64,000 nucleotides of DNA, taken from NCBI RefSeq assembly GCF_000016665.1, contig NC_009523.1, positions 4,773,501-4,837,500 of the forward strand, in the 5' to 3' direction. The number at the start of each line of letters is the position of its first letter. Position 1 is the stretch's first letter. Origin of the DNA: Roseiflexus sp. RS-1. GTDB taxonomy: Bacteria > Chloroflexota > Chloroflexia > Chloroflexales > Roseiflexaceae. The position numbers and the translations under genes are program-made. Below the pieces are notes generated by a model, which was given only the letters and a program-made list of their open reading frames with translations, was not told the DNA's origin and did not search any database. Below, one piece after another: positions 27,314-62,961 of the stretch.

Positions 27314-27317
27314 AGTA

Positions 27318-27600
27318 GAACCGAGAACTAAGAACCAAGAACCAAGAACTGAGAACTGAGAACCGAGAACCGAGAACTGAGAACTGAGAACCAGGAACCG
27401 AGAACCAGGAACCGAGAACCGAGAGCCGGGAACTGAGAACCGAGAACTGAGAGCCGAGAACTGAGAACCAGGAACCGAGAACCAAGAACTGAGAACCGAG
27501 AACTGAGAGCCGAGAACTGAGAACCGAGAACCAGGAACCGAGAACCAAGAACTGAGAACTGAGAACTGAGAGCCGAGAACCGAGAACTGAGAACTGAGAG
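27318..27600. repeat. Heptamer tandem repeat array
   Basis: About 40 head-to-tail 7-base units, mostly GAGAACT, GAGAACC, CAAGAAC and CAGGAAC variants, starting 5 bases 5' of the PBP start codon. On the minus strand it reads through all three frames as a 7-residue period. The remaining 27601-27872 shows no gene I recognise. Confidence 0.95.
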
Positions 27601-33130: not shown

Positions 33131-36046
33131 CACCCGCGCCAGGCACTGACCGGTGTACGATCCTGGCGTTCGCGCGACCTGTTCAGGCGTGCCGACGGCG
33201 ACAACACGCCCGCCCTCCTCGCCTCCCTCCGGTCCCAGGTCGATCACCCAATCGGCGCATTTGATCACATCGAGATGGTGTTCGATCACCAGAACGGTGT
33301 TTCCCGCGTCCACCAGGCGCTGCAAGACGCGCAGCAACCGGTCAACATCAGCGACGTGCAGGCCGGTCGTCGGTTCATCGAGGATGTAGAGGGTGCGCCC
33401 GGTGGCGCGCCGACTCAGTTCGGTCGCCAGTTTGATGCGTTGCGCCTCACCGCCGGAGAGGGTGGTCGCAGGTTGACCCAGGCGAATATACCCTAACCCG
33501 ACGTCGATCAGGGTTTGCAACTTTTCGGCGATGGATGGGACACGCTCGAAAAATGCCGCCGCTTCTTCAACCGTCATGTCGAGCACTTCGGCGATGTTCT
33601 TGCCCCGGTAACGAATGTCGAGCGTTTCACGGTTGTAGCGCGCGCCGTGACAGACATCGCAGGTGACGTACAGATCGGGAAGGAACTGCATTTCGATCTG
33701 CATCAATCCTTCGCCGTTGCAGTGCTCGCACCGTCCTCCGGGAATGTTGAACGAGAAACGACTGGCATCATAGCCGCGCGCGCGCGCTTCAGGCGTTTGC
33801 GCGAACAATTTGCGGATCGGGTCGAACGCCTTGGTGTAGGTGACCGGGTTGGAGCGTGGCGTGCGCCCGATGGGCGACTGGTCGATGTCGATCACCTTAT
33901 CGATCTGTTCGATGCCATAGATTGCGTCGTGGGCGCCGGGGCGCGCGCGCGCGCCATGGAGCGCCTGCGCCAGCCGCGGGTAGAGGGTGTCGTTGATCAG
34001 GGTCGATTTGCCAGACCCGCTGACGCCGGTGACTGCCACCAGACATCCCAGCGGGATGGCGACGTCGATGTTCTTCAGGTTGTGCTCGCGCGCTCCCCTG
34101 ATCATCAGGAATGCGCCGTTGCCGGGTCGTCGGCGGCGTGGCACGGCAATCGTGCGTTTGCCGGAGAGGTACTGTCCGGTAAGTGAGCGCGGCTCTGCCA
34201 GCACTGCATCGAGCGGACCGCTGACGATCACCTCGCCGCCGCGCTCTCCCGCACCGGGACCAATGTCAACGATCCAGTCGGCTGCGCGAATGATCTCTTC
34301 GTCGTGTTCAACAACCAGCACGCTGTTGCCCAGGTCGCGCAGTTGACGCAACGTGTTGAGCAGGCGCGCCGTATCACGTGGGTGTAACCCGATGCTCGGC
34401 TCGTCCAGCACATAGAGCGCACCGCTCAGCCCGGCGCCGATCTGCGTCGCCAGGCGAATGCGCTGCGCCTCGCCGCCAGCAAGGGTCGTCGCAGTGCGGT
34501 CAAGCGTGAGATACCCCAGCCCGACTTCATTTAGAAACCGGAGTCGGGCGCAGATGTCATTCAGGATTGGCGCCGCGATCTGACATTCGCGCACCGTAAG
34601 AGCATAGATGGACGAGCGCAGGTCGCTTTCGCGCGTCTCACGCCAGCGGGCGACCACCTCGTCAACGTCGGCAGCCAGTGTTTTCGCCCACGACCACGCT
34701 TCAGCGACAGGGAGCGCCGCCACCTGCGCAATCGTGTATCCGGCGACGGTGACGGCGAGCAGTTCGGGACGCAGTCGCGCGCCGTTGCATGCCGGGCATG
34801 TGCGCGGGGTCATAAACTGCTCAATCTGTGCGCGTTCGGTTTCATCGGTGCATTCCGCCAGACGACGGCGCAGACCGGGGATAACCCCCTCGAACGGCGC
34901 CTCAACCATGCGCTCTTCGCCGCGTATGTGGTAACGGAGTGGCATCACATCGCCGTTAGAACCGTAGAGCAGCGTAGCGATCACCTCCGGGCGCAGATCG
35001 CGCACTGGTGTGTGCAGTGAAAAACCGAGGTGCCCGGCGAGTGATGTCAGCAGATCGTCGAAGTAGCGGCGCTGCGCGCGACTGACGTTCGACCAGGGCG
35101 CGACGGCGCCTTCCGCAAGTGAACGGGATCGGTCGGGGATCACCAGTTCAGGGTCGAACTCCAGCACGCTTCCCAGACCATCACAGGCAGGGCAGGCGCC
35201 CGATGGATTGTTGAATGAAAAATCGCGCGGTTCGAGCGCCCCGATGGAAGCCGGTCCGTGCACCGGGCAGGCGTAACGCTGCGACAGAGTGAGTTCATCA
35301 CCGCCGACGATCTGGACGATCACCACGCCGCCGCCGACCCGCAGCGCCGTTTCGACCGAATCGGCGACGCGCACGCGAAACTGCGTCTGTTGCTGCGAGG
35401 GATCGGCTGATGGAATGACCAGCCGGTCCACAACGACCTCGATCGTATGCGGACGATGACGGTCAAGGCGCAGGTCGTCGCCAAGATCGCGCACCTCGCC
35501 ATCGACGCGCACACGGACGAACCCCTGCTTGCGCACCTGATCGAAGAGGGTCTGATGGTCGCCCTTCTGATCGCGAACGAGGGGCGCAAGCAGCAGCACG
35601 CGGCTGCCACCCGGCAGACCGAGGATCGTATCGATCATCTGTTGCGCCGACTGGCGCGTGAGCGGACGACCGCAGTGGATGCAGTGCGGTCGTCCAATCC
35701 GGGCAAACAGCAGTCGCAGATAATCGTAGATTTCGGTAATGGTGCCGACGGTTGAGCGCGGATTGCGCGCCAGCCCTTTCTGATCGATGGCAATGGCAGG
35801 CGACAATCCTTCGATGGCGTCAACGTCCGGCTTGTCGATCTGACCAAGGAACTGGCGGGCATAGGCGGAAAGCGATTCGACATAGCGACGCTGACCTTCG
35901 GCAAAAATCGTATCGAACGCCAGCGACGACTTGCCGGAGCCGGAGAGACCGGTGATCACCACCAGCGCATTGCGCGGCATGGCGACCGTGATATTCTTAA
36001 GATTATGGACGCGCGCCCCGCGCACCACGATCCGATCAGCAGACAT
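33119..36046 (-). CDS. uvrA: Excinuclease ABC subunit A
   Basis: 975 residues from ATG 36046 ([19 protein letters not shown]); upstream in-frame codons lack similarity. Two ABC modules with Walker [13 protein letters not shown] and [12 protein letters not shown] and signatures [12 protein letters not shown] and [12 protein letters not shown]. Zinc-finger cysteines appear as CIHC, CPVH/CPAC, CPAC and CEHC/CDVC pairs. It recognises DNA lesions in nucleotide excision repair with UvrB. uvrB is not in the window. Confidence 0.97.
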
Positions 36047-36115
36047 AGCACTCGCGCCAAGACACAGGATCAGACGTGGGATGGTAGCACGGAACCGCGC
36101 AGCGATCAATGCCGC

Positions 36116-36418
36116 CTAGGCGAACTTTTCGCCACGCACCACCTGCACATCGCTTACATAGGCAATGACGGCATAGTTGGGAAAATAATGGTCTGCCATC
36201 GCATCCATAATGCGGTCGGCGACTTCAGGCGAGACCAGCGTTTCGATCTTGATATTGCCGCCCTGCCACTGACTGGCGTGAATCCCGCGCGTACCCTCGC
36301 CGTGCACCTCGGAGATGGTGTAGCCATGCGCGCCAAGCGCATGGATTTCGTGGATCAACCGATCCTTCAGCACCGGTTCGGCGATGATCGTCACCAATCG
36401 TACTGTCGTCAGTTTCAT
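36116..36418 (-). CDS. SbtB-like PII signalling protein
   Basis: 100 residues from ATG 36418, with AAAGGAG upstream. PII-like fold: [37 protein letters not shown] (T-loop start), and [19 protein letters not shown] at the C-terminus. The sequence is SbtB-like rather than GlnB (no Tyr-uridylylation motif), and it lacks the C-terminal CGPEGC tail of cyanobacterial SbtB. SbtB proteins bind adenine nucleotides and gate the SbtA bicarbonate transporter. Gene lies 36 bases downstream of the sbtA-like gene. Confidence 0.82.
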
Positions 36419-36454
36419 ACACTCGCTCCTTTCAATGCACTCCATCGTGCCGCA

Positions 36455-37452
36455 TCACATCCGTCCGAGCGTCGCGCCCAGCCAGCGTGCATATTCATAA
36501 TACAACGGCAAGCCAAGAATGAGATTCACCGGGAGGGTAATGCCAAGCGATGATGTCAGATAAATGCTCGGATTCGCCTGCGGGAACGTGGCGCGCACGG
36601 CGGCTGGAGCGTCGATGTACGATGAACTTGCGGTAATGACTCCCAGAATGAAGGCGCCGTTAGGAGAAAGCCCCGCAAGCAGACCGAGCGACACGCCGAT
36701 AATACCGTGGATCAGCGGCATGACCGTTCCAAAGACCGCCATAAACGGACCGACTTTGACAAAATCGCGCAACTGCCGACCGGCGAGCATGCCCATTTCG
36801 ATCAGGAAGAAGACCAGCACACCGCGGAAGAGATCGCCGTAGAGCGGCTTGATGCGCGCAAACCCCTGCTCGCCGATAATCATGCCGATCAGCAGCCCGC
36901 CAAGCAGCAACACCACACTGCGCCCGGTGAGCGTATCACGGATGACCCGACCAAGATCGCTCTGTTGCGCCTGACTCACCCCCAGGCGCCAGCGGCCGAT
37001 GAAGAGCGCCACAATGATGCCCCACTCCATCAGCGCCGCCAGCGCCGGGATGAACGCCTCGAATGTGTTCTGCCCTTCCGGCAGACGCTCGACAAACGAG
37101 ATTCCAGCAACAAAGGTGACCGATGAGACCGAACCGTAATGCGCTGCAATGCCGGCGGCGTTGGGAATGTCGAACCTGCCGGGACCGCGCAGGATCAGAA
37201 GCACCAGGTCGGCACGGCGATTGCCAGAGCGATCGTTGCCAGCGCTGGCAGGATGAACGCGGACAGCGGTGTTCCTGCCAGTTCGACACCGCCATTCAAG
37301 CCGATTGAGAACAGGAGATAGACCGAAATGGCCTTGATGACCGGTTCGGGAATCTCGACTTCGCTCCTGATCAGCGTTGCAACAATGCCCAACACGAATG
37401 CCAGCACCAGCGGCGACAGCAGGTTGCTGCGGATGATCTCGACCGTATCCAT
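36455..37452 (-). pseudogene. SbtA-like sodium-dependent bicarbonate transporter, single frameshift
   Basis: Two overlapping minus frames together make one SbtA-family protein of about 332 residues. The N-terminal part (37452 to about 37208) has MDTVEIIRSNLLSPLVLAFV and IGLNGGVELAG. The C-terminal part (about 37208 to 36455) has AAHYGSVSSVTFVAG and the SbtA hallmark ASSSYIDAPAAVRATFPQAN. The first frame ends IAVPTWCF-stop; adding one C at the ACC-TGG junction near 37208-37212 would read VPTLVLLILRG and join the halves. A real mutation, a sequencing error or a programmed event are all possible; both halves are otherwise intact. Confidence 0.82.
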
Positions 37453-37493
37453 ACTCCCCTCAAAGATATATAAAGATAAAACGGACATCTCAG

Positions 37494-37522
37494 AATATAT
37501 CAAAAAGCGCTATTTGCGTCAA
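37494..37522 (-). promoter_or_regulatory. Putative sbtA promoter
   Basis: TTGACG (37522-37517), 17 bases, TATATT (37499-37494) on the minus strand, about 40 bases upstream of the sbtA start. The -35 is embedded in TCTCTATATTGAC, shared but for one base with the dabB promoter region. The 37453-37593 spacer is unusually AT-rich. Confidence 0.6.
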
Positions 37523-37593
37523 TATAGAGATTACAAAGATATAAAAAGACTATACCTTTAACGGATCAGGTTCCATCGAATGACGGGGAGGCA

Positions 37594-38973
37594 TCAATCG
37601 GTATCGCGGCGCAGCATATATCCCTGGCCACGCACGGCGATCAATTTGCGGGGATGTTTGGGGTCGGGTTCGATCTTGTCGCGGATGCGCTCGATAATCT
37701 TCTGCAGCGCACTGTCAGACGGCGGGGAGACGGGCCAGATAGCGCGTTTGACTTCATCGCGGGTGCAGACGCGCCCGGCGTTTTCGCGCAGGAACGCATA
37801 GACCTCCCCTTCGAGGTGGGTAAAGGCGGGCGGCGTTGCCGGCGCTGCGGCGGGCGGCGGTGGAAGCGACGTCGAGGGCCTGTCCGGTTGATCCGACAGC
37901 GCCTGGGCGAAGATGGTCGAAGCGATACGCCAGCCGTGCCGGTCGCGCTGCGCCAGCCCACGGGCGTGGAGCGCCTCGAAGATCGCAGCCTCGTCGGGGG
38001 TTGGCGCACGGTTCTGATCGATCAGCGACTGGCGCGCGTCGACGGACGCTGTATGCGTCTCGGTCAACTCGCGCCACCAGGAGCGGCAGAGCGGGCGCGC
38101 CTCTTCGATGGCGGCGCGTTCGACGTCATCGGGGCTGCCGGTCGGATGGAGCCGCCACTCGTACACGTGCGCGGCGGCGATCAGGATCAACGTCAGATTG
38201 GCGCCGCCAAGCCGTCGGATCCAGGCGCGATCAGCGTCATTCAACTCTGGCGCACGTCCGAGCAGCGCAGCAATGTCGGCGTCATCAAGCCCCCCAATGA
38301 ACAGCTCGCTGGCGAACAACCCCCAGAAGGAGGACGGCTCGCGTAACTCGCTCACCGGGTAGAGACGACTCAATGGTGTACTGGAAGTGACGACATAAGC
38401 GACACGATCGCCAATGTCGGGGTCCTGCGTCAGCGAGCGCAGGAAACTTGCCGTGTGGCGCGGCAGGCGCGCGATGCCTTCCACATTGTCAATCAGGAAA
38501 ATGAAGGTGTGATCCCCCGTGCGACGGATGATGTCTTCGACCGTGCACTTAAGAGCATACACCGTATCAACAATGGCCGCTTCGGCGATGCCCTGATCGG
38601 GAAGGGTGGGGAGATCGTCGGGCAGGGCGAGCGCCTGCGCTGTGGCGCGCGCCAGATCACGCCAGAAATAGAGGGCGCCGTGGCTCTGAGAAGCGCCGAG
38701 ATCGGCATAGGGACCCGCGTTGACGTAGGGGAAGACAAACCGTGTCGCGTCGGCGCAGATTGGGCGTGCTGCCGTCGAACTGCGCAGGTAGTAGAGCAGC
38801 GAAGTCTTCCCGCTCCGCGCATCGCCAACCACGGCGCAGCACTGCGGCGGCGCAGCCGTCAGACGCTCGCAGACTGCGTCGATGAGACTGCGCCGCCCGA
38901 TAAAGAGACGAGGATCGATCACCGGTTTGCGGTTGCCGAATGGGTTCATACGCACGCCTGCGTTCTGCGACAT
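37594..38973 (-). CDS. AAA/STAND-type ATPase with C-terminal OmpR-like winged helix (transcription regulator)
   Basis: 459 residues from ATG 38973; an ATG at 38949 is equally possible. N-terminal ATPase: Walker A VVGDARSGKTSLL and Walker B-like FIFLIDNVEGI. The C-terminal about 95 residues form a Trans_reg_C winged helix (HLEGEVYAFLRENAGRVCTRDEVKRAIW; KIIERIRDKIEP; LIAVRGQGYML). No receiver domain. Located between sbtA and the dab genes on the same strand, it is the obvious candidate to control this cluster, though that is inferred. Confidence 0.8.
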   Translation of the reverse strand: MSQNAGVRMNPFGNRKPVIDPRLFIGRRSLIDAVCERLTAAPPQCCAVVGDARSGKTSLLYYLRSSTAARPICADATRFVFPYVNAGPYADLGASQSHGALYFWRDLARATAQALALPDDLPTLPDQGIAEAAIVDTVYALKCTVEDIIRRTGDHTFIFLIDNVEGIARLPRHTASFLRSLTQDPDIGDRVAYVVTSSTPLSRLYPVSELREPSSFWGLFASELFIGGLDDADIAALLGRAPELNDADRAWIRRLGGANLTLILIAAAHVYEWRLHPTGSPDDVERAAIEEARPLCRSWWRELTETHTASVDARQSLIDQNRAPTPDEAAIFEALHARGLAQRDRHGWRIASTIFAQALSDQPDRPSTSLPPPPAAAPATPPAFTHLEGEVYAFLRENAGRVCTRDEVKRAIWPVSPPSDSALQKIIERIRDKIEPDPKHPRKLIAVRGQGYMLRRDTD

Positions 38974-39024
38974 TGCTGACAATAACTATACCACACTTCA
39001 CGCAGGCGTGTCGATATATCGACT

Positions 39025-39396
39025 TCAGAAGACCAGCGTTGTTGCGCCGATGCAGAAATCCGCCATTTCTGCGATGCTCAGCACACGCACGCCTGGGAGC
39101 AGACCCTGATCGACGCTGAGCCAGTAGCGCTGGAGGCATGGCTGCGACAGGTACAACGTTCCGCCTGCTTTACGATACGCATCGCGCACTTCGCGCAACG
39201 GCGGGTATCCTGCTTCGTGCAGAGTGGCAGCCCAACCTTCCGCCGTTGCACACAACACTCCTTCACCGCGCAGTAGTACTGCTGCGTGACGTCCAGCAGT
39301 CAGCGCGGCGCTTGCCGTCAGAAATCCCAGGGTGACGGCGCCGGGATCACGCCCGGCATGGGTGATGATGATGACCAGTCGCGGCGCGGTCGTCAT
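39025..39396 (-). CDS. DsrE/DsrF-like small protein
   Basis: 123 residues. Fold features of the DsrE family: LVIIITHAGRDPGAVTLGFLTASAALTAGRHAAVLLRGEGVLC, then a central segment with Cys in LSQPCLQRYWLS and a C-terminal VRVLSIAEMADFCIGA. It is 6 bases downstream of dabA and probably translated with it. DsrE proteins handle sulfur transfer or form small oligomers; a role with DabA is unreported to my knowledge. Confidence 0.72.
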   Translation of the reverse strand: MTTAPRLVIIITHAGRDPGAVTLGFLTASAALTAGRHAAVLLRGEGVLCATAEGWAATLHEAGYPPLREVRDAYRKAGGTLYLSQPCLQRYWLSVDQGLLPGVRVLSIAEMADFCIGATTLVF

Positions 39397-39402
39397 ATCG
39401 GA

Positions 39403-41919
39403 TCAGCATTCCTCCCATTGCAAACCGCCAATATACCTGTGCGTCACCTTACCGCTCGCGTCGAGCGCAAACAGGTAGAGCCAGCCGTTGTCGAGCAACT
39501 GCCGCACCTGCTCGTGCCTGGCAATAATTGCGGTCATAGCGTCGATCGGCGCTTCGATCATAACGTGCAGCCGCATCGGCTCGTGCACATACTTTTCGCC
39601 GTCGTGCACCGATTGCCACGGCAGTCCGACGCGCAGATCGCCAGCGTTGCCTTCGAGCACGCCGAGCGTTCCGACGACATTGTGCAGCGTCTTGTTGCCG
39701 CTGCCGAAGACCCGGTTATCCACCGTCGAACCGTAGTACTGGAGATTGATCCAGCTGGCGACGATCATCGGCGCCGTCATGATGAGTTCCAGCACGCCGA
39801 AGCCTTCGTCCTGCCGCCATTCGTAGGAATGCAGGAAGGAACGTCCATTCATCACCACCCCTGCATTACGATCGCGCGGGGCGACGATAAACGCTGCACA
39901 CCCTGCCAGCCCCCATTCCGGGCGCACCTGCGACCAGTCTTTGCTCCGGCGACGAACCGCGCTATCGATATCCGTCTTTGTGCCGATTTTCAAGAGCATT
40001 GATCGCTCCGCGCGCGCCAGCCGTCCGGCTGCGGCAAGATCAGCTTCGAGCCGCTTGAGGTCGGCAGTATGACTCGCCGGAATATGGGCTTTGTCGAAAA
40101 TCGTCACATCATCGGTGGTGGTGTCGTGCAGACCGGCCAGGAACACGGTGTCATCGGGGATGATGAGACCACGCTCTTTCAAGCCGGCACGCACGGCGGG
40201 ATCGTTCAGAATCCGCACCGCCACCCGCACATTCGCCTCGCCGGTATGTCCGCCGCATGCACCGCAGTCCAGACCGGTTGCATGGGGGTTGTTGACGGTC
40301 GTTGAGCCATGCCCGGTCAGCAACACCAGACGTGCGAAGTTGTTCGTCAGCGACATCGCTTTGAGCGCCCCTTCGGCGGCTGCCACCCGCTGTTCCAGCG
40401 TCATGCCGGTTGTGCGCCCTCCAAGGGTACGCGGTTCGAGACTGGGCGCGACGCGCTCGCGCGTGTGCGCATCCAGCCCAAACGTTGCCGGATGTGGCAC
40501 AGGACGGGTGATCCCCAACGTATCCAGCGCCAGCTTCCGCACGTATGCCAGACCGACCGGACCGACGAACCCGAAGCAGGAGATTGGTGCGAACTTGAAC
40601 ATTCGCCAGGCTTTGGCAACCCGCTGGTTCTGTGCGCGTTTCTCGATAGCGGCGTTCACGTCGCGCTCAGACGCGCCGTCGACCGATTCGGCAATAACGA
40701 ACTGCGGCGTCAACAGAACCGGGCACTGCGCGCCGCCGCGGGTCTCTGCCAGCGGCACATACTCGATCGGGAAGCCGAAGAACCCTGCGAAACCGATCGT
40801 CTCAATCTCGTCGGTCACCGTCTCAAGCGCGCGCCGGAAAATTTCAGAGCGCACATCGATGCAAAATGCCGCCTGCACCCGCTTGCGTGCAGCGACTCTG
40901 GCCGGCGTCGTTGCGCCGAGCTGTGCAAAAAACTGACGCTGATAGGCTTTCTCAAAGGCTCGCTGGAGCAGGAGATCACCGGCGAGCGCGCGCTGGAGCG
41001 CCGGGTCAGGGCGATCGTTGACATATTCGCCTGCCATTGAGCGCCATACGTCAGCCACTCCCTTGCGCGCGAAGCTGTGCCAGAGCGCCACTTCCCAGAC
41101 CAGCCGGATCGCCAGCAGATCGGTCAGCGTGTGGTCTTCACCGCCGTAGAGTTCGGCGTCCCAGCGAAGATAGCGGGCATACGCCGCCCATCCGTGAATG
41201 CTCAACAGGAGTCGGTGCAGATATGCTTCAAGCCCATTGATCGGAATGTTCAACTTCTCCACTGCGGCGACAATGGTCTCCATTGCCGATTCCGGCATTT
41301 CGCGCAACGCCTGACGAAAGCCATGCACGCCGCGCGTCTGTGGTGTGCGGTCGTGCGCAGCCTCGGCGCGCCACGCAGCATACGGCGGCAGATGTTTCCA
41401 CGGCGACCGCCAGTAGGACTGACCCAGGTCGAAATAAGCGCCAGCCCAGGTTGAGATCAGGTCGGTTACGACATCAGCCCAGTTGATGCCGGTCACCTTG
41501 CGGGCTGCATCGGCGACCGTCGGCAGGATCGGGAACGTCGGCTCCGGCTCATCGCCCAGGGCGAACGCCTTGAGCGCCGCCACGTTTGCGGGAGCGCCGG
41601 GAAATGGGCTTCCCCCGGCTAATGCCGCTTCGAGATCCGCATCGGTGATGCGGCCGCTCCGGATCGCCTGCGCGTAGAAGGAGCGCGGGGCCGTCATCCG
41701 CGCACCCGCCCGCCGTGCCAGGATGTAAGCGGCAGACTCGAAGGAATGATCGATCAATCCCAGGTATGGATTGACGGCGACAAAATAGCGCAGGGGCCAC
41801 AGGGGAGCGATGCGTTGTTCGGCGCGCCGCACCGCCTCTTTGATCGTGTCAATAGCCGGAGCGTATGTCGGCGCGGTGCGTGCAGGTCGGGTCTGAACGT
41901 CAGCCATTTGCATATTCAT
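39403..41919 (-). CDS. dabA: DabA, inorganic carbon uptake protein (DUF2309/UPF0753)
   Basis: 838 residues. Characterised DabA is a zinc-containing, carbonic-anhydrase-like protein that works with membrane protein DabB to accumulate inorganic carbon. All four metal/active-site positions known from DabA2 are present with matching spacing: C353 and D355 (AAFCIDVRSEIFRR), H537 (LLTGHGS) and C552 (GLDCGACGGHTG). The N-terminus FVAVNPYLGL is typical. GGAGGA-type Shine-Dalgarno precedes ATG 41919. dabB lies 31 bases upstream on the same strand. Confidence 0.93.
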   Translation of the reverse strand: MNMQMADVQTRPARTAPTYAPAIDTIKEAVRRAEQRIAPLWPLRYFVAVNPYLGLIDHSFESAAYILARRAGARMTAPRSFYAQAIRSGRITDADLEAALAGGSPFPGAPANVAALKAFALGDEPEPTFPILPTVADAARKVTGINWADVVTDLISTWAGAYFDLGQSYWRSPWKHLPPYAAWRAEAAHDRTPQTRGVHGFRQALREMPESAMETIVAAVEKLNIPINGLEAYLHRLLLSIHGWAAYARYLRWDAELYGGEDHTLTDLLAIRLVWEVALWHSFARKGVADVWRSMAGEYVNDRPDPALQRALAGDLLLQRAFEKAYQRQFFAQLGATTPARVAARKRVQAAFCIDVRSEIFRRALETVTDEIETIGFAGFFGFPIEYVPLAETRGGAQCPVLLTPQFVIAESVDGASERDVNAAIEKRAQNQRVAKAWRMFKFAPISCFGFVGPVGLAYVRKLALDTLGITRPVPHPATFGLDAHTRERVAPSLEPRTLGGRTTGMTLEQRVAAAEGALKAMSLTNNFARLVLLTGHGSTTVNNPHATGLDCGACGGHTGEANVRVAVRILNDPAVRAGLKERGLIIPDDTVFLAGLHDTTTDDVTIFDKAHIPASHTADLKRLEADLAAAGRLARAERSMLLKIGTKTDIDSAVRRRSKDWSQVRPEWGLAGCAAFIVAPRDRNAGVVMNGRSFLHSYEWRQDEGFGVLELIMTAPMIVASWINLQYYGSTVDNRVFGSGNKTLHNVVGTLGVLEGNAGDLRVGLPWQSVHDGEKYVHEPMRLHVMIEAPIDAMTAIIARHEQVRQLLDNGWLYLFALDASGKVTHRYIGGLQWEEC

Positions 41920-41950
41920 GGGTGCTTCCTCCAGATAATCATTTCATCAA

Positions 41951-43537
41951 TCAGCGAGCCAGTCGAACTGCGTCCATGAACCGGTCGAACAGAGCGTTGG
42001 CGTAGAAGCCGTTCTTAAGGTGAACATAGAGCGCCTGCCAGACGGGGCGGTTGACCAGCGCGGGCAGCCAGGCGCTGAACGCCATCACGATGCCGAAGAT
42101 GACGACTGCCACCACGATTGCGATCATCGTTGCCATATTGAGCGGCGGGTAGACCGCCACTGCTCCGCCGAGCAACGCTTCTGCGGTCACTTCAAGGGCG
42201 AAGAAGGCGAGGGTCACCAGCGCCGCCATCAGCATCGTGCGACCGATCACAGGAAGAGGCGCCCTGGCAGTGTTGCCCTTCACCAGCAAATAGGCGACAG
42301 CGATCATGAATATCGTGATCATCGCAGTCTCACCCGGACGCTTGGTGATGTCGATGCCGAGCGCAGTCGCAACTGCCAGAAAGATCGCGACCGCTGCCGC
42401 CATATTCACCAGGAAACTGAGCGGATGCGGCGGTGTGTCCAGTTTCTGGGCGCCGGTATTCCGCACATACTCGATGATGCTGCCGGATGACAGGAAGGCG
42501 TGCGCCTTGTAGCAGGAATGGGCGATGAGATGCATCATGGCGACCGTGTGCGCGCCGAACCCGCACAACATCAACATAAAACCCATGTGCGCAGCGCTCG
42601 AATAGGCAAGCGAGACTTTGACGCTGCTCTGGGTGATCATTGATGACGAGGCGAAGATGGCAGTGAAACCGCCGATCACAATCAGCATGATCAGCGCCGG
42701 GGTCGACAGAAAGACCAGTTCGCCGAACCGCACCACCAGAAAGATGCCTGCGTTGAGCAGACCGGCGTGTAGCAGCGCCGACACCGGGGTTGGCGTTTCC
42801 ATCACTTCGAGCAACCAGCCGTGAAATGGGAACATCGCCGATTTCAGTGAAGCGGTCACCACGATCAGTATTGCGGCAGCAGCAACGCTGGCGGGAACGT
42901 TTCCATCCGCAAGCGCTGCAGCCGCTGCTGCACGGATCATGCCCAGATCGGCAGTGCCAAATGCCTGCACCAGCAACACCGCAGCGACGATCAGACATGC
43001 ATCGCCAATCCGGGCGGCGATAAACTTCTTGCGGGCGGCCCGGATCGCACGCGGGCGCTCAGGATAGAACACCAGGAGTTCGTGCAGCGCGAGGCTCATG
43101 CCGATCCACGCCAGCACTAATTGCCAGAGATTGCCGGACAACACCATCAGCAGGACGGCGCCGACGGTCAGGTAGAGGCGGATGAAAAAGAGTTTCTGGC
43201 GCGGATCGCCATCAAGATAGTTGCGGCTGAACTGGATCAGCAATGTTCCCAGCAATGTCACCAGCCACGACATCATGACACTCAGCGCATCCAGGCGCAG
43301 CGCAATGCCCGCTTCGCCGACGCCGATCAGCGGGCTGACAATTGGACCGGACGTGAAAACAACGATCCCGATTGCAATCAACAGCAAGAACGAACCTGCG
43401 CTGACAGCACGCCCGAGTTGGAAGGTCAGATCAACCGACCGTACCAGGTTGATCGAAGCCATGAGCGCCACCACGAACAGTGATAGCGGCGCAAGATACG
43501 CGATAAGCGCCAGATTGCCGATCATCAAACCGTCCAT
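41951..43537 (-). CDS. dabB: DabB, NuoL/MrpA-like proton-conducting membrane subunit
   Basis: 528 residues with about 14 membrane helices. It belongs to the proton-conducting transporter family: GWLLEVMETPTPVSALLHAG (antiporter-like core with conserved Glu/His), LIAHSCYKAHAFLSSGS. It would supply proton-motive force coupling to DabA. AGGAGGGAGG Shine-Dalgarno-like sequence upstream. Not part of a Complex I operon here, and adjacency to dabA fixes the assignment. Confidence 0.92.
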   Translation of the reverse strand: MDGLMIGNLALIAYLAPLSLFVVALMASINLVRSVDLTFQLGRAVSAGSFLLLIAIGIVVFTSGPIVSPLIGVGEAGIALRLDALSVMMSWLVTLLGTLLIQFSRNYLDGDPRQKLFFIRLYLTVGAVLLMVLSGNLWQLVLAWIGMSLALHELLVFYPERPRAIRAARKKFIAARIGDACLIVAAVLLVQAFGTADLGMIRAAAAAALADGNVPASVAAAAILIVVTASLKSAMFPFHGWLLEVMETPTPVSALLHAGLLNAGIFLVVRFGELVFLSTPALIMLIVIGGFTAIFASSSMITQSSVKVSLAYSSAAHMGFMLMLCGFGAHTVAMMHLIAHSCYKAHAFLSSGSIIEYVRNTGAQKLDTPPHPLSFLVNMAAAVAIFLAVATALGIDITKRPGETAMITIFMIAVAYLLVKGNTARAPLPVIGRTMLMAALVTLAFFALEVTAEALLGGAVAVYPPLNMATMIAIVVAVVIFGIVMAFSAWLPALVNRPVWQALYVHLKNGFYANALFDRFMDAVRLAR

Positions 43538-43675
43538 ACGAAGTAGTCCCTCCCTCCTGTCTTTTCACTCTTGTCGGTAGCCTGAAACGAAACGGCGCTC
43601 CCTGGCGGAAGTCGCCGGGTGTGTTCCTGTGGCGTGATCTGCGAGAGGTGCATTGCGCTCAACAGTCTGGAGATG

Positions 43676-43721
43676 AAAATATCAGAAATTATCGTAAATG
43701 TCAATATAAAGACATATTGAC
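43676..43721 (-). promoter_or_regulatory. dabB promoter with overlapping inverted repeat
   Basis: Minus strand TTGACA (43704-43699), 17 bases, TATTTT (43681-43676). The -35 overlaps a perfect inverted repeat GTCAATAT-N6-ATATTGAC (43700-43721), a likely regulator site. The motif TCTTTATATTGAC is shared with the sbtA promoter region. Rest of 43538-43902 shows no gene. Confidence 0.68.
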
Positions 43722-43902
43722 ATCCAAAAAACTCTTTTTTTGGCGGATGTTCCCCGACCTATGGCGGGGAACGTCCCCTCTTCGCAAGGGTGGCGTTCGT
43801 GGGAGCGATGAGTAATGTTCTACGTGCGTAGTGACAACCCGTACATCTCTTCGTATAATGGGACGAAGGAATATGCAGGGCGCATCGCGCCGGAGCGTCG
43901 AT

Positions 43903-44973
43903 ATGTCTGATCGAAAGCGTCAGAGCCAGCCGCCAACACAAGGAGGAACAGGAGTGAACATCGCAGGACGAACTGTTGCTATCGTGTTTGTGCTGCTGAT
44001 CATCGCCGGGTTGGGTGCGGCAACCGCGCGGTTTGTGCAGGTTGACGAAGGGCAGCGTGGCATCATCGTGACCAGCGGCGCCGTTGAGGGGATACAGGAG
44101 CCAGGGATCTTTTTCCGTCCCTTTGCGCCCTTCACCCGTGTCGAAATTGTCAATGTCCGTCGTCAGACGGTGACACTGAGCCAGAATGTCGCCAGTAGCG
44201 ACAAACAGTTGTACGATATCGACATCCAGGTCGATTACAGCCGCAAAACCGATCCGGCGTTGCTGCGGCAGATGTATGCACGGATCGGCACCAGCGACGA
44301 CCTGCTCCGGACACAACTCGACGGATTCATCGCCGATGCGCTCAAGAGCGCCAGCACGCAGTTCTCGCTCGACCAGGCGCTCTCTGACCGTGGCGGTTTT
44401 GCGCAGCGCATTCGCGCCAATCTGACGACGCCGCCGGGTCCGGGGCAGGAGAGTCCTGCCGATCAACTGTTCGTTGTGATCGAGGCAGTCAAGGTGCTCG
44501 ATATCAAGGTCAGTGAGGAGTACGCCCGTCTGCTTTCCGAAAAGGCGAATCTGGAGGTGAAGATCGAAACTGAGGAGCGTCGTCGCCAGCAGATCGAGGC
44601 GGAACAGGCGAACAATCTGTTCCAGGCCGAGCAGGAAGCGCGGGTGGCGCTGACCCGCGAGAAGGGAAAGACGGCAGCCGCACTCGAGGAGGCGAACCGC
44701 GAGGCGCAGGTGCGCGCGATCCAGGGACGCTACTGGCGCGAGAATCCAGAACTGTTTGAACTGCGCATCCGTGAATTGATGGTCGAAATGTTGAAGAGCG
44801 GCAATGTCTGGTTCATCGACCCGAATACCAACCTCACCCTGTTGCTGAATCAGATGGCGACCGGCACAACAGTCGTGCCCAACCCGTCGTCGGGGCAGCG
44901 CACCTCGCCGCAACCGACGCCATCCCAGCCAGCGTCGCCTGAGCAACCATCGGCGCCAGCGACGACGCCGTAA
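43903..44973 (+). CDS. SPFH-domain membrane protein (prohibitin-like)
   Basis: 356 residues from ATG 43903 (MSDRKRQSQPP), GGAG about 8 bases upstream. One N-terminal membrane helix (TVAIVFVLLIIAGLGAATA), SPFH/Band 7 domain (VDEGQRGIIVTSGAVEGI through VLDIKVSEEYARLL), then a coiled coil rich in Glu/Arg/Gln (ANLEVKIETEERRRQQIEAE) and a Pro/Ser/Thr tail. Prohibitin-like proteins form ring scaffolds at the membrane. Co-transcribed with the next gene. Confidence 0.87.
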   Translation: MSDRKRQSQPPTQGGTGVNIAGRTVAIVFVLLIIAGLGAATARFVQVDEGQRGIIVTSGAVEGIQEPGIFFRPFAPFTRVEIVNVRRQTVTLSQNVASSDKQLYDIDIQVDYSRKTDPALLRQMYARIGTSDDLLRTQLDGFIADALKSASTQFSLDQALSDRGGFAQRIRANLTTPPGPGQESPADQLFVVIEAVKVLDIKVSEEYARLLSEKANLEVKIETEERRRQQIEAEQANNLFQAEQEARVALTREKGKTAAALEEANREAQVRAIQGRYWRENPELFELRIRELMVEMLKSGNVWFIDPNTNLTLLLNQMATGTTVVPNPSSGQRTSPQPTPSQPASPEQPSAPATTP

Positions 44974-45439: not shown

Positions 45440-45815
45440 ATATTTAGAGCAGTTCCCACAGAGGTTGAACCAATTGGACAAGGTTGAACGCTCCCAGAAT
45501 CGCGCTCCCCCCACAGCGACCGAAATGAATGTCGGTCTACGCTCTGCCGGAAACGGGCGCCTCGCGCGACACGGCAAGCGGGCTTCGCCCTGGATAGCCG
45601 AGGGCTTATCGTAGGCGATAGGCACAGGCGATAGGCGATGGGCGATAGGGTCACCGTTGGAGTTCGCATTACGCGCAGGCAGGCTGTGCCTCGCCTGGAA
45701 GAGGGCTTATGGTCTTTGCAGAAATAATCCGTCATAGCCCGCGCAGGCGGGCTTCGCCCTGGATAGCCGAGGGCTTTAGCCCGACGGCAAAAGGCGCATA
45801 ATTGCTATAAATGCT
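45440..45815. repeat. Composite repeat region with MITE-like element copy 2
   Basis: 45446-45575 matches the element at 22792-22963 in inverted orientation, about 90 percent by eye, including AGCAGTTCCCA end and the CGAAATGAATNTCGGTCTACGC-type core. After that it diverges. A 30-base direct repeat (GCGGGCTTCGCCCTGGATAG start) occurs at 45568 and 45744. A short GGCGATAGG-type array lies at 45610-45650. ATTGCTATAAA near 45798 may be the far terminal repeat. No gene in 45273-45847. Confidence 0.65.
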
Positions 45816-62371: not shown

Positions 62372-62443
62372 AGATCCTCCGTTTGATCCAGGATACCGGT
62401 TCTTGTCAGCCGGTCCGGGCGCCGCAACGCTGCGCCTACGTCG

Positions 62444-62961
62444 CCGCTCGCCGCGCCCCTCTCCCCTCGCACCTGACATCTGTACGGGCAACCATTCGAG
62501 ACGGTGCGATGCAACGTTTCTACGGGCGACGTTCAACGTTCAACCTCCCAACCTTCAACCCCTCGCGCCGCGCGCCGCGCGCCCCCGCCATAGACCCTGC
62601 CCTGGTACAGGCGCAGCGCCGCTGCGCCCCTCCGTCGCCGCTCGCCTCGCCCCTCTCCCCTCGCACCTGACACCTGTACGGGCAACCATTCGAGACGGTG
62701 CGATGCAACGTTGCTACGGGCGACGTTCAACGTTCAACCTCCCAACCTTCAACCCCTCGCGCCGCGCGCCGCGCGCCCCCGCCATAGACCCTGCCCCGGT
62801 ACAGGCGCAGCGCCGCTGCGCCCCTCCGTCGCCGCTCGCCTCGCCCCTCTCCCCTCGCACCTGACACCTGTACGGGCAACCATTCAAGACGGTGCAATGC
62901 AACGTTTCTACAGGCGACGTTCAATGTTCAACCTTCCAACCTTCAACCCCTCGCGCCCCTC
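62444..62961. repeat. Three-copy 194-bp tandem repeat
   Basis: Units starting about 62444, 62638 and 62832 (third truncated near 62961) are nearly identical. Each holds CTGTACGGGCAACCATTC, a GTTCAACGTTCAACCTCCCA stretch and a GCGCCGCGCGCCGCGCGCC run. Frames through it are repeat artefacts. The GTTGAAC/GTTCAAC element matches the palindrome at 33096-33130. Confidence 0.92.

Follow-up and report, generated by a model that had tools for sequence, protein, structure and literature searches.

A conserved dab-sbt island with a candidate ATPase/winged-helix regulator in the RuBisCO-less phototroph Roseiflexus sp. RS-1

A CO2-concentrating step is expected wherever carboxylases use bicarbonate, and such steps have been studied almost only in hosts with RuBisCO. 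The best-described Dab complex is DAB2 of Halothiobacillus neapolitanus (DabA2-DabB2, PDB 9rd0), for which functional residues have been assigned (PMC13144422) and in which the replacement E444A or E444Q abolished activity. Proteobacterial dabBA genes are accompanied by a divergent LysR gene in eight annotated plasmid loci, most of those opened; on a Mesorhizobium plasmid (L147 10472-12243), the genes directly after dabBA are one annotated as cysD and one of DUF6671. In the SbtA-SbtB system, the second described relative, the transporter gene is directly followed by that of its PII-like partner. Finally, Chloroflexota that use the 3-hydroxypropionate (3-HP) bi-cycle possess both DAC and SbtA, which have been argued to supply bicarbonate (PMC10880623, Scott et al. 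2024).

The locus described here from Roseiflexus sp. RS-1 resembles each of these systems and departs from each. Its Dab proteins are homologous to DAB2 over nearly their full length, sharing the Zn ligands, the Asp-Arg dyad, Leu658 and ten DabB proton-path residues, but they carry Gly in place of Glu444 and three distinctive DabB residues (E449, H317 and H330), have no LysR neighbour and reside in a host without RuBisCO. The dabB-dabA order and an adjoining regulator gene are also found in the LysR-controlled loci, whereas the Roseiflexus regulator is a STAND/OmpR-type ATPase encoded downstream of dabA. The PF05982 and P-II matches, and an sbtB directly downstream of sbtA, recall the SbtA-SbtB system; unlike it, the RS-1 sbtA1 is a pseudogene and a second SbtA lacks an adjacent sbtB. 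The basic reading, in which HP-cycle Chloroflexota use DAC together with SbtA, is already published (PMC10880623), in a survey that contains neither the Roseiflexus cluster nor its regulator, operator, pseudogene or residue change. What is new here is the regulator, a putative operator and an altered DabAB proton path.

Layout and conservation of the island

The window, that is, the whole stretch of 64,000 nucleotides analysed, corresponds to G000:C1:4773501-4837500 of the 5,801,598-bp single-contig genome. An earlier note had placed the six genes of an inorganic-carbon (Ci) uptake island on one strand of it, and all six are present with correct coordinates, on the minus strand, spanning 36116-43537 (window numbering). 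In order of transcription they are as follows, the regulator being abbreviated REG:

41951-43537, minus strand: dabB, NuoL-like membrane subunit of 528 aa (PF00361, 135.7 bits; also PF00662)
39403-41919, minus strand: dabA, vectorial carbonic-anhydrase-like subunit of 838 aa (PF10070, 931.8 bits)
39025-39396, minus strand: dsrE-like gene, 123 aa (PF02635, 38.7 bits)
37594-38982, minus strand: REG, STAND/AAA-type ATPase with a C-terminal OmpR-type winged helix (PF00486, 49.5 bits)
36455-37452, minus strand: sbtA1 pseudogene, PF05982 (Sbt_1) in two pieces
36116-36445, minus strand: sbtB, short PII-like protein (P-II, PF00543, 83.5 bits)

Comparison of orthologs places the conserved starts of two of these genes probably inside the listed frames, at the ATG at 38949 for REG and at ATG 36418 (MKLTTV) for sbtB. 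The island is flanked by uvrA after sbtB and, upstream of dabB, by a divergent SPFH gene; the dabB promoter lies inside 43538-43721. Just past the SPFH gene, a single match to the Rfam CRISPR-DR28 repeat was seen (window 45735-45758, minus strand), where no array was called.

In the gene-order comparison that the earlier note had proposed, five further Roseiflexus genomes (G065-G069) keep this order, likewise bounded by the SPFH gene and uvrA; one of them (G069) is without dsrE. Such agreement is far beyond chance. In the sister genus (G061), dabB, dabA, REG and sbtB persist, while dsrE is broken and only 57 codons of sbtA are left. Since the order is shared by five congeners and most genes recur in the sister genus, the module is genuine and of long standing in Roseiflexus. 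Its description in the earlier note as self-contained, with the DsrE-like gene as a part, stands with respect to the regulator, which is tied to Ci uptake in every genome that carries it (see below), but not with respect to the DsrE-like gene, which is accessory and dispensable, as it is absent in one congener and decayed in the sister genus.

The Dab complex and its proton path

The match of DabA to PF10070 is full-length (positions 1-747 of 747) and above the cut-off. Aligned with DabA2 (9rd0_A), residues C353, D355, R357, H537 and C552 correspond to C351, D353, R355, H524 and C539 of DAB2, so that the Zn site (C353/H537/C552) and the dyad (D355/R357) are complete, Leu658 of DAB2 is also kept, and the four ligands that the earlier note had listed as intact (C353, D355, H537 and C552) are indeed so. 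For the adjacent NuoL-like DabB, the closest solved chain is DabB2 (9rd0_B), and 10 of 10 proton-path residues are kept. Purifying selection acts on both genes (dN/dS about 0.1-0.17).

These intact ligands do not settle what DabA does, because the essential proton-path residue of the DAB2 finger motif, Glu444, is replaced by Gly453 in the RS-1 protein. By this residue the Roseiflexus DabA is classed as a member of the DAC family and not as one with a DAB2-type mechanism; and, given the loss of DAB2 activity in E444A or E444Q, its own activity is not guaranteed. Gly occupies this site in all 16 members of a clade (support 100/100) made up of Roseiflexus, G061, G060 and Chloroflexus, while Glu or, in one case, Asp stands there in all remaining DabA examined (Chloroflexia, Proteobacteria, Actinomycetota, Bacillota and Halobacteria). 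In the tree, the Gly-type clade falls within the DAB2-type DabA of Proteobacteria and separately from the remaining Dab of Chloroflexia, and the simplest reading would be a horizontal acquisition together with a derived loss of Glu444.

The partner subunit differs in the same clade. DabB E449, H317 and H330 are invariant among the Gly-type complexes, where others show a variable residue, Gln, and Phe, Tyr or Trp, respectively; the DabB residue of 9rd0 that aligns with E449 is His450. Together with the loss of Glu444, these residues suggest a rewired proton conduit, and we propose that DabB E449 takes over from Glu444 of DabA; the co-occurrence is suggestive, as it traces to a single evolutionary event. 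In the Gly-type DabA, nature provides an exception to the 2026 DAB2 mechanism, in which Glu444 is essential, and if E449 does replace this residue, two-residue swaps could map the proton path of Dab complexes.

SbtA copies and SbtB

The earlier note had called the island sbtA frameshifted, and so it is: one nucleotide is missing between 37200 and 37199, inside a Tyr codon that is complete in the five congeners, and the reading frame ends 85 codons in, at TGA 37197-37195. The island of RS-1 accordingly encodes two Sbt_1 fragments rather than an intact full-length protein, whereas sbtA1 is a plain 332-codon ORF in all five congeners (G065-G069). Since the split from G065, the RS-1 gene has accumulated five nonsynonymous and one synonymous changes, whereas the G065 branch shows none and 19, respectively (Fisher p = 1.1e-4, from small counts). 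A programmed frameshift was ruled out by the plain ORFs of the congeners and by this relaxed selection. We read sbtA1 of RS-1 as a real pseudogene and not as a sequencing error, because the one-nucleotide deletion coincides with relaxed selection on the RS-1 branch. In the sister genus, the intact sbtB beside the 57-codon remnant (L068 10714-11208) represents a second, independent loss of the island sbtA.

A second, intact copy, SbtA2, about 55% identical to the island SbtA, is encoded 2.3 Mb from the island (G000:C1:2466134-2467039; L104 7614-8639, minus strand). It also occurs in G061 and in four of the five congeners, and the one without it (G068) has an intact sbtA1; every Roseiflexus genome examined therefore retains at least one intact SbtA. 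To judge from the sequences, the functional SbtA of RS-1 must be SbtA2, outside the island. The earlier note had counted an SbtA-like protein elsewhere in the genome, serving this role while the island genes are silent, as evidence against its proposal; of this, the presence of a second SbtA is borne out.

SbtB belongs to its family by its P-II match and by a gene adjoining sbtA. Its PDB matches include Thermus TTHA0516 and SbtB (the latter at E about 1e-11), the RS-1 protein being nearer to TTHA0516 than to cyanobacterial SbtB. The SbtA2 gene has no adjoining sbtB in Roseiflexus, while Chloroflexus relatives have one directly downstream. As the island sbtB is still strongly constrained (RS-1/G065 dN/dS 0.06) despite the broken sbtA1, its product may act in trans on SbtA2; a tree of SbtB, asking which SbtA is its partner, picked out no pairing.

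Candidate regulator, promoters and proposed carbon supply

REG combines Walker A and Walker B motifs with a winged helix of the OmpR/PhoB type (Trans_reg_C, PF00486) that is closest to WalR/VicR. Its N-terminus holds no receiver domain with a phospho-Asp and has the Walker-type ATPase instead, an AAA_16/nSTAND-like part that scores below the AAA_16 cut-off in RS-1 and above it in orthologs. The structure model (mean pLDDT 62.9, with a low ATPase core) weakly resembles archaeal STAND-type ATPases (2qen, 2fna), which we take as support only. Full-length orthologs were found in 10 of 158 Chloroflexia genomes, all of them DabA-positive; a wider search returned eight orthologs, all from Chloroflexota, plus one partial winged-helix match. 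REG adjoins dab or sbt in all ten genomes: it lies between dab and sbt in seven, directly downstream of dabAB without sbt in two (G022 and G023), and divergent from an sbtA1-type/sbtB pair in G019 (L111 5134-8170), where dabAB is on another contig. Its Dab neighbours fall into two different lineages in the tree. Because two Dab lineages and one sbt-only case stand beside REG, its link is to Ci uptake as such and not to one inherited block.

Within 35900-44000, only three minus-strand sigma70-like promoters were found, before dabB, REG and sbtA, and all carry a shared motif:

43676-43733, minus strand: dabB promoter and putative operator, AGTTTTTTGGATGTCAATATGTCTTTATATTGACA-N17-TATTTT, core at 43699-43713
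38985-39023, minus strand: REG promoter and putative operator, GTCGATATATCGACA-N18-TATAGT, core at 39009-39023
37494-37551, minus strand: sbtA promoter and putative operator, AGTCTTTTTATATCTTTGTAATCTCTATATTGACG-N17-TATATT, core at 37517-37531

The island thus looks like three separately transcribed units whose promoters match, rather than one operon. At each promoter, GTC-N2-TATAT-N-GACA or a near form overlies the -35 box. The core of the putative operator, GTCNNTATATNGACA, has two exact matches in the 5.8-Mb genome, before dabB and REG, and the sbtA copy of RS-1 deviates from it by two mismatches. Across 13 genomes, a longer promoter pattern was matched nine times, each time within the island, and its reversed control not once. 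The dabB and sbtA promoters further share an upstream AGTYTTT and additional RTC repeats, as expected for an OmpR-type protein predicted to bind direct repeats. The REG copy is absent in G066 and G067, and a search of the loci in G019, G022 and G023 returned no match.

With regard to the host, no PF00016 (RuBisCO) match is present in the RS-1 genome. SbtA and DabAB, described in the earlier note as best known from autotrophs with RuBisCO, show no such association for DabA within Chloroflexia, where 31 of 158 genomes are DabA-positive, 23 RuBisCO-positive and five both, which is chance level. The 3-HP enzymes of Roseiflexus RS-1 were 13C-labelled from bicarbonate in situ, where Roseiflexus uses the 3-HP bi-cycle for bicarbonate fixation (PMC12542760). 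The two HP genomes surveyed in PMC10880623 were reported to have no carbonic anhydrase (CA) genes, and a similar absence in RS-1 was considered and rejected: unlike those genomes, it encodes a 165-aa beta-CA of the Rv1284/3las type with an intact Zn motif (C-x-D-x-R and H-x-x-C; G000:C1:4614037-4614534, L105 5038-5535, plus strand), and no alpha-CA was found in it. The beta-CA would partly defeat an accumulation of bicarbonate and counts against the Ci-uptake explanation. A literature search covering Roseiflexus with SbtA or bicarbonate transporter, and DUF2309 with Chloroflexi, but not the names REG and DsrE, returned no paper.

Taken together, we consider it probable that dabBA, SbtAB and REG make up an inorganic-carbon uptake regulon that feeds the 3-HP bi-cycle and anaplerosis. 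DabB and DabA would form an energy-coupled, one-way complex hydrating CO2 to cytoplasmic bicarbonate, and SbtA, in RS-1 the SbtA2 that replaces the broken SbtA1, would import bicarbonate under the control of the PII-like SbtB. REG would sense a signal, for which ATP or a metabolite of carbon status is our guess, and would most likely control dabB, sbtA and itself via the putative operator that the three promoters share at their -35 boxes. The resulting bicarbonate would be consumed by the biotin carboxylases of the 3-HP bi-cycle and by anaplerosis, these carboxylases being the proposed sink because RuBisCO is absent. The earlier note had likewise suggested that the cluster feeds the bi-cycle; an uptake island, a RuBisCO-less host and the published DAC and SbtA link speak for it, but the island of RS-1 itself delivers no working SbtA, and the connection is circumstantial. 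More tentatively, the Dab of Chloroflexota phototrophs could be of DAB2-like proteobacterial origin with its proton-relay Glu moved from the DabA finger to DabB E449 (with H317/H330), and in Roseiflexus, joined by SbtAB, it could stand under a previously undescribed STAND-ATPase/winged-helix regulator of Ci uptake feeding a bicarbonate-based carbon cycle; this composite account is possible, though we would not bet on all of it.

The main competitor concerns the destination of the bicarbonate. Further members of the Chloroflexia, as well as heterotrophic bacteria and archaea, carry DabA, DACs are known from heterotrophs, and Roseiflexus is largely photomixotrophic, so both uptake systems might, like the MpsAB/DAC systems of heterotrophs, mainly serve anaplerosis, fatty-acid synthesis and respiration-linked growth at low CO2 rather than the bi-cycle in particular. 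We regard this as unlikely, as the Gly-type clade does not extend beyond Roseiflexus, G061, G060 and Chloroflexus, most of them genera with a known 3-HP bi-cycle, and as DIC transporters are abundant in HP organisms (PMC10880623). It also seems rather improbable that Gly-type DabAB, through a changed ion, a changed direction or a lost coupling, has ceased to be a proton-driven CO2 hydratase: although Gly in 16 of 16 members, the inactivity of E444A/Q and the Na+ use argued for the homolog MpsAB would fit, the Zn site and the ten proton-path residues are all kept, purifying selection acts on the genes, and the three DabB residues gained in the same clade could have relocated the coupling.

Only a small chance is left to a functional SbtA1 in RS-1, whether by sequencing error or programmed shift; the gene is otherwise alignable and differs by one base, but the ratios of 5:1 and 0:19 on the two branches, the uninterrupted frames of the congeners, the parallel loss in G061 with sbtB kept and the intact SbtA2 all point to decay. 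Similarly improbable is the view that REG has nothing to do with the Ci-uptake genes beside it and that the motif is an ordinary sigma70 sequence. The motif does include a normal -35 TTGACA and a -10, and the REG-bearing lineages are related; yet the sequence upstream of the -35 is common to the promoters and island-specific, and the regulator recurs beside two Dab lineages and once beside sbt alone. The locus offers a complete, conserved and apparently co-regulated system in a RuBisCO-less phototroph, whose candidate regulator and putative operator are directly testable. Elsewhere in the window, two long tandem arrays were seen, with a 7-bp unit repeated 40 times at 27317-27599 and a 194-bp unit repeated 2.8 times at 62410-62957.
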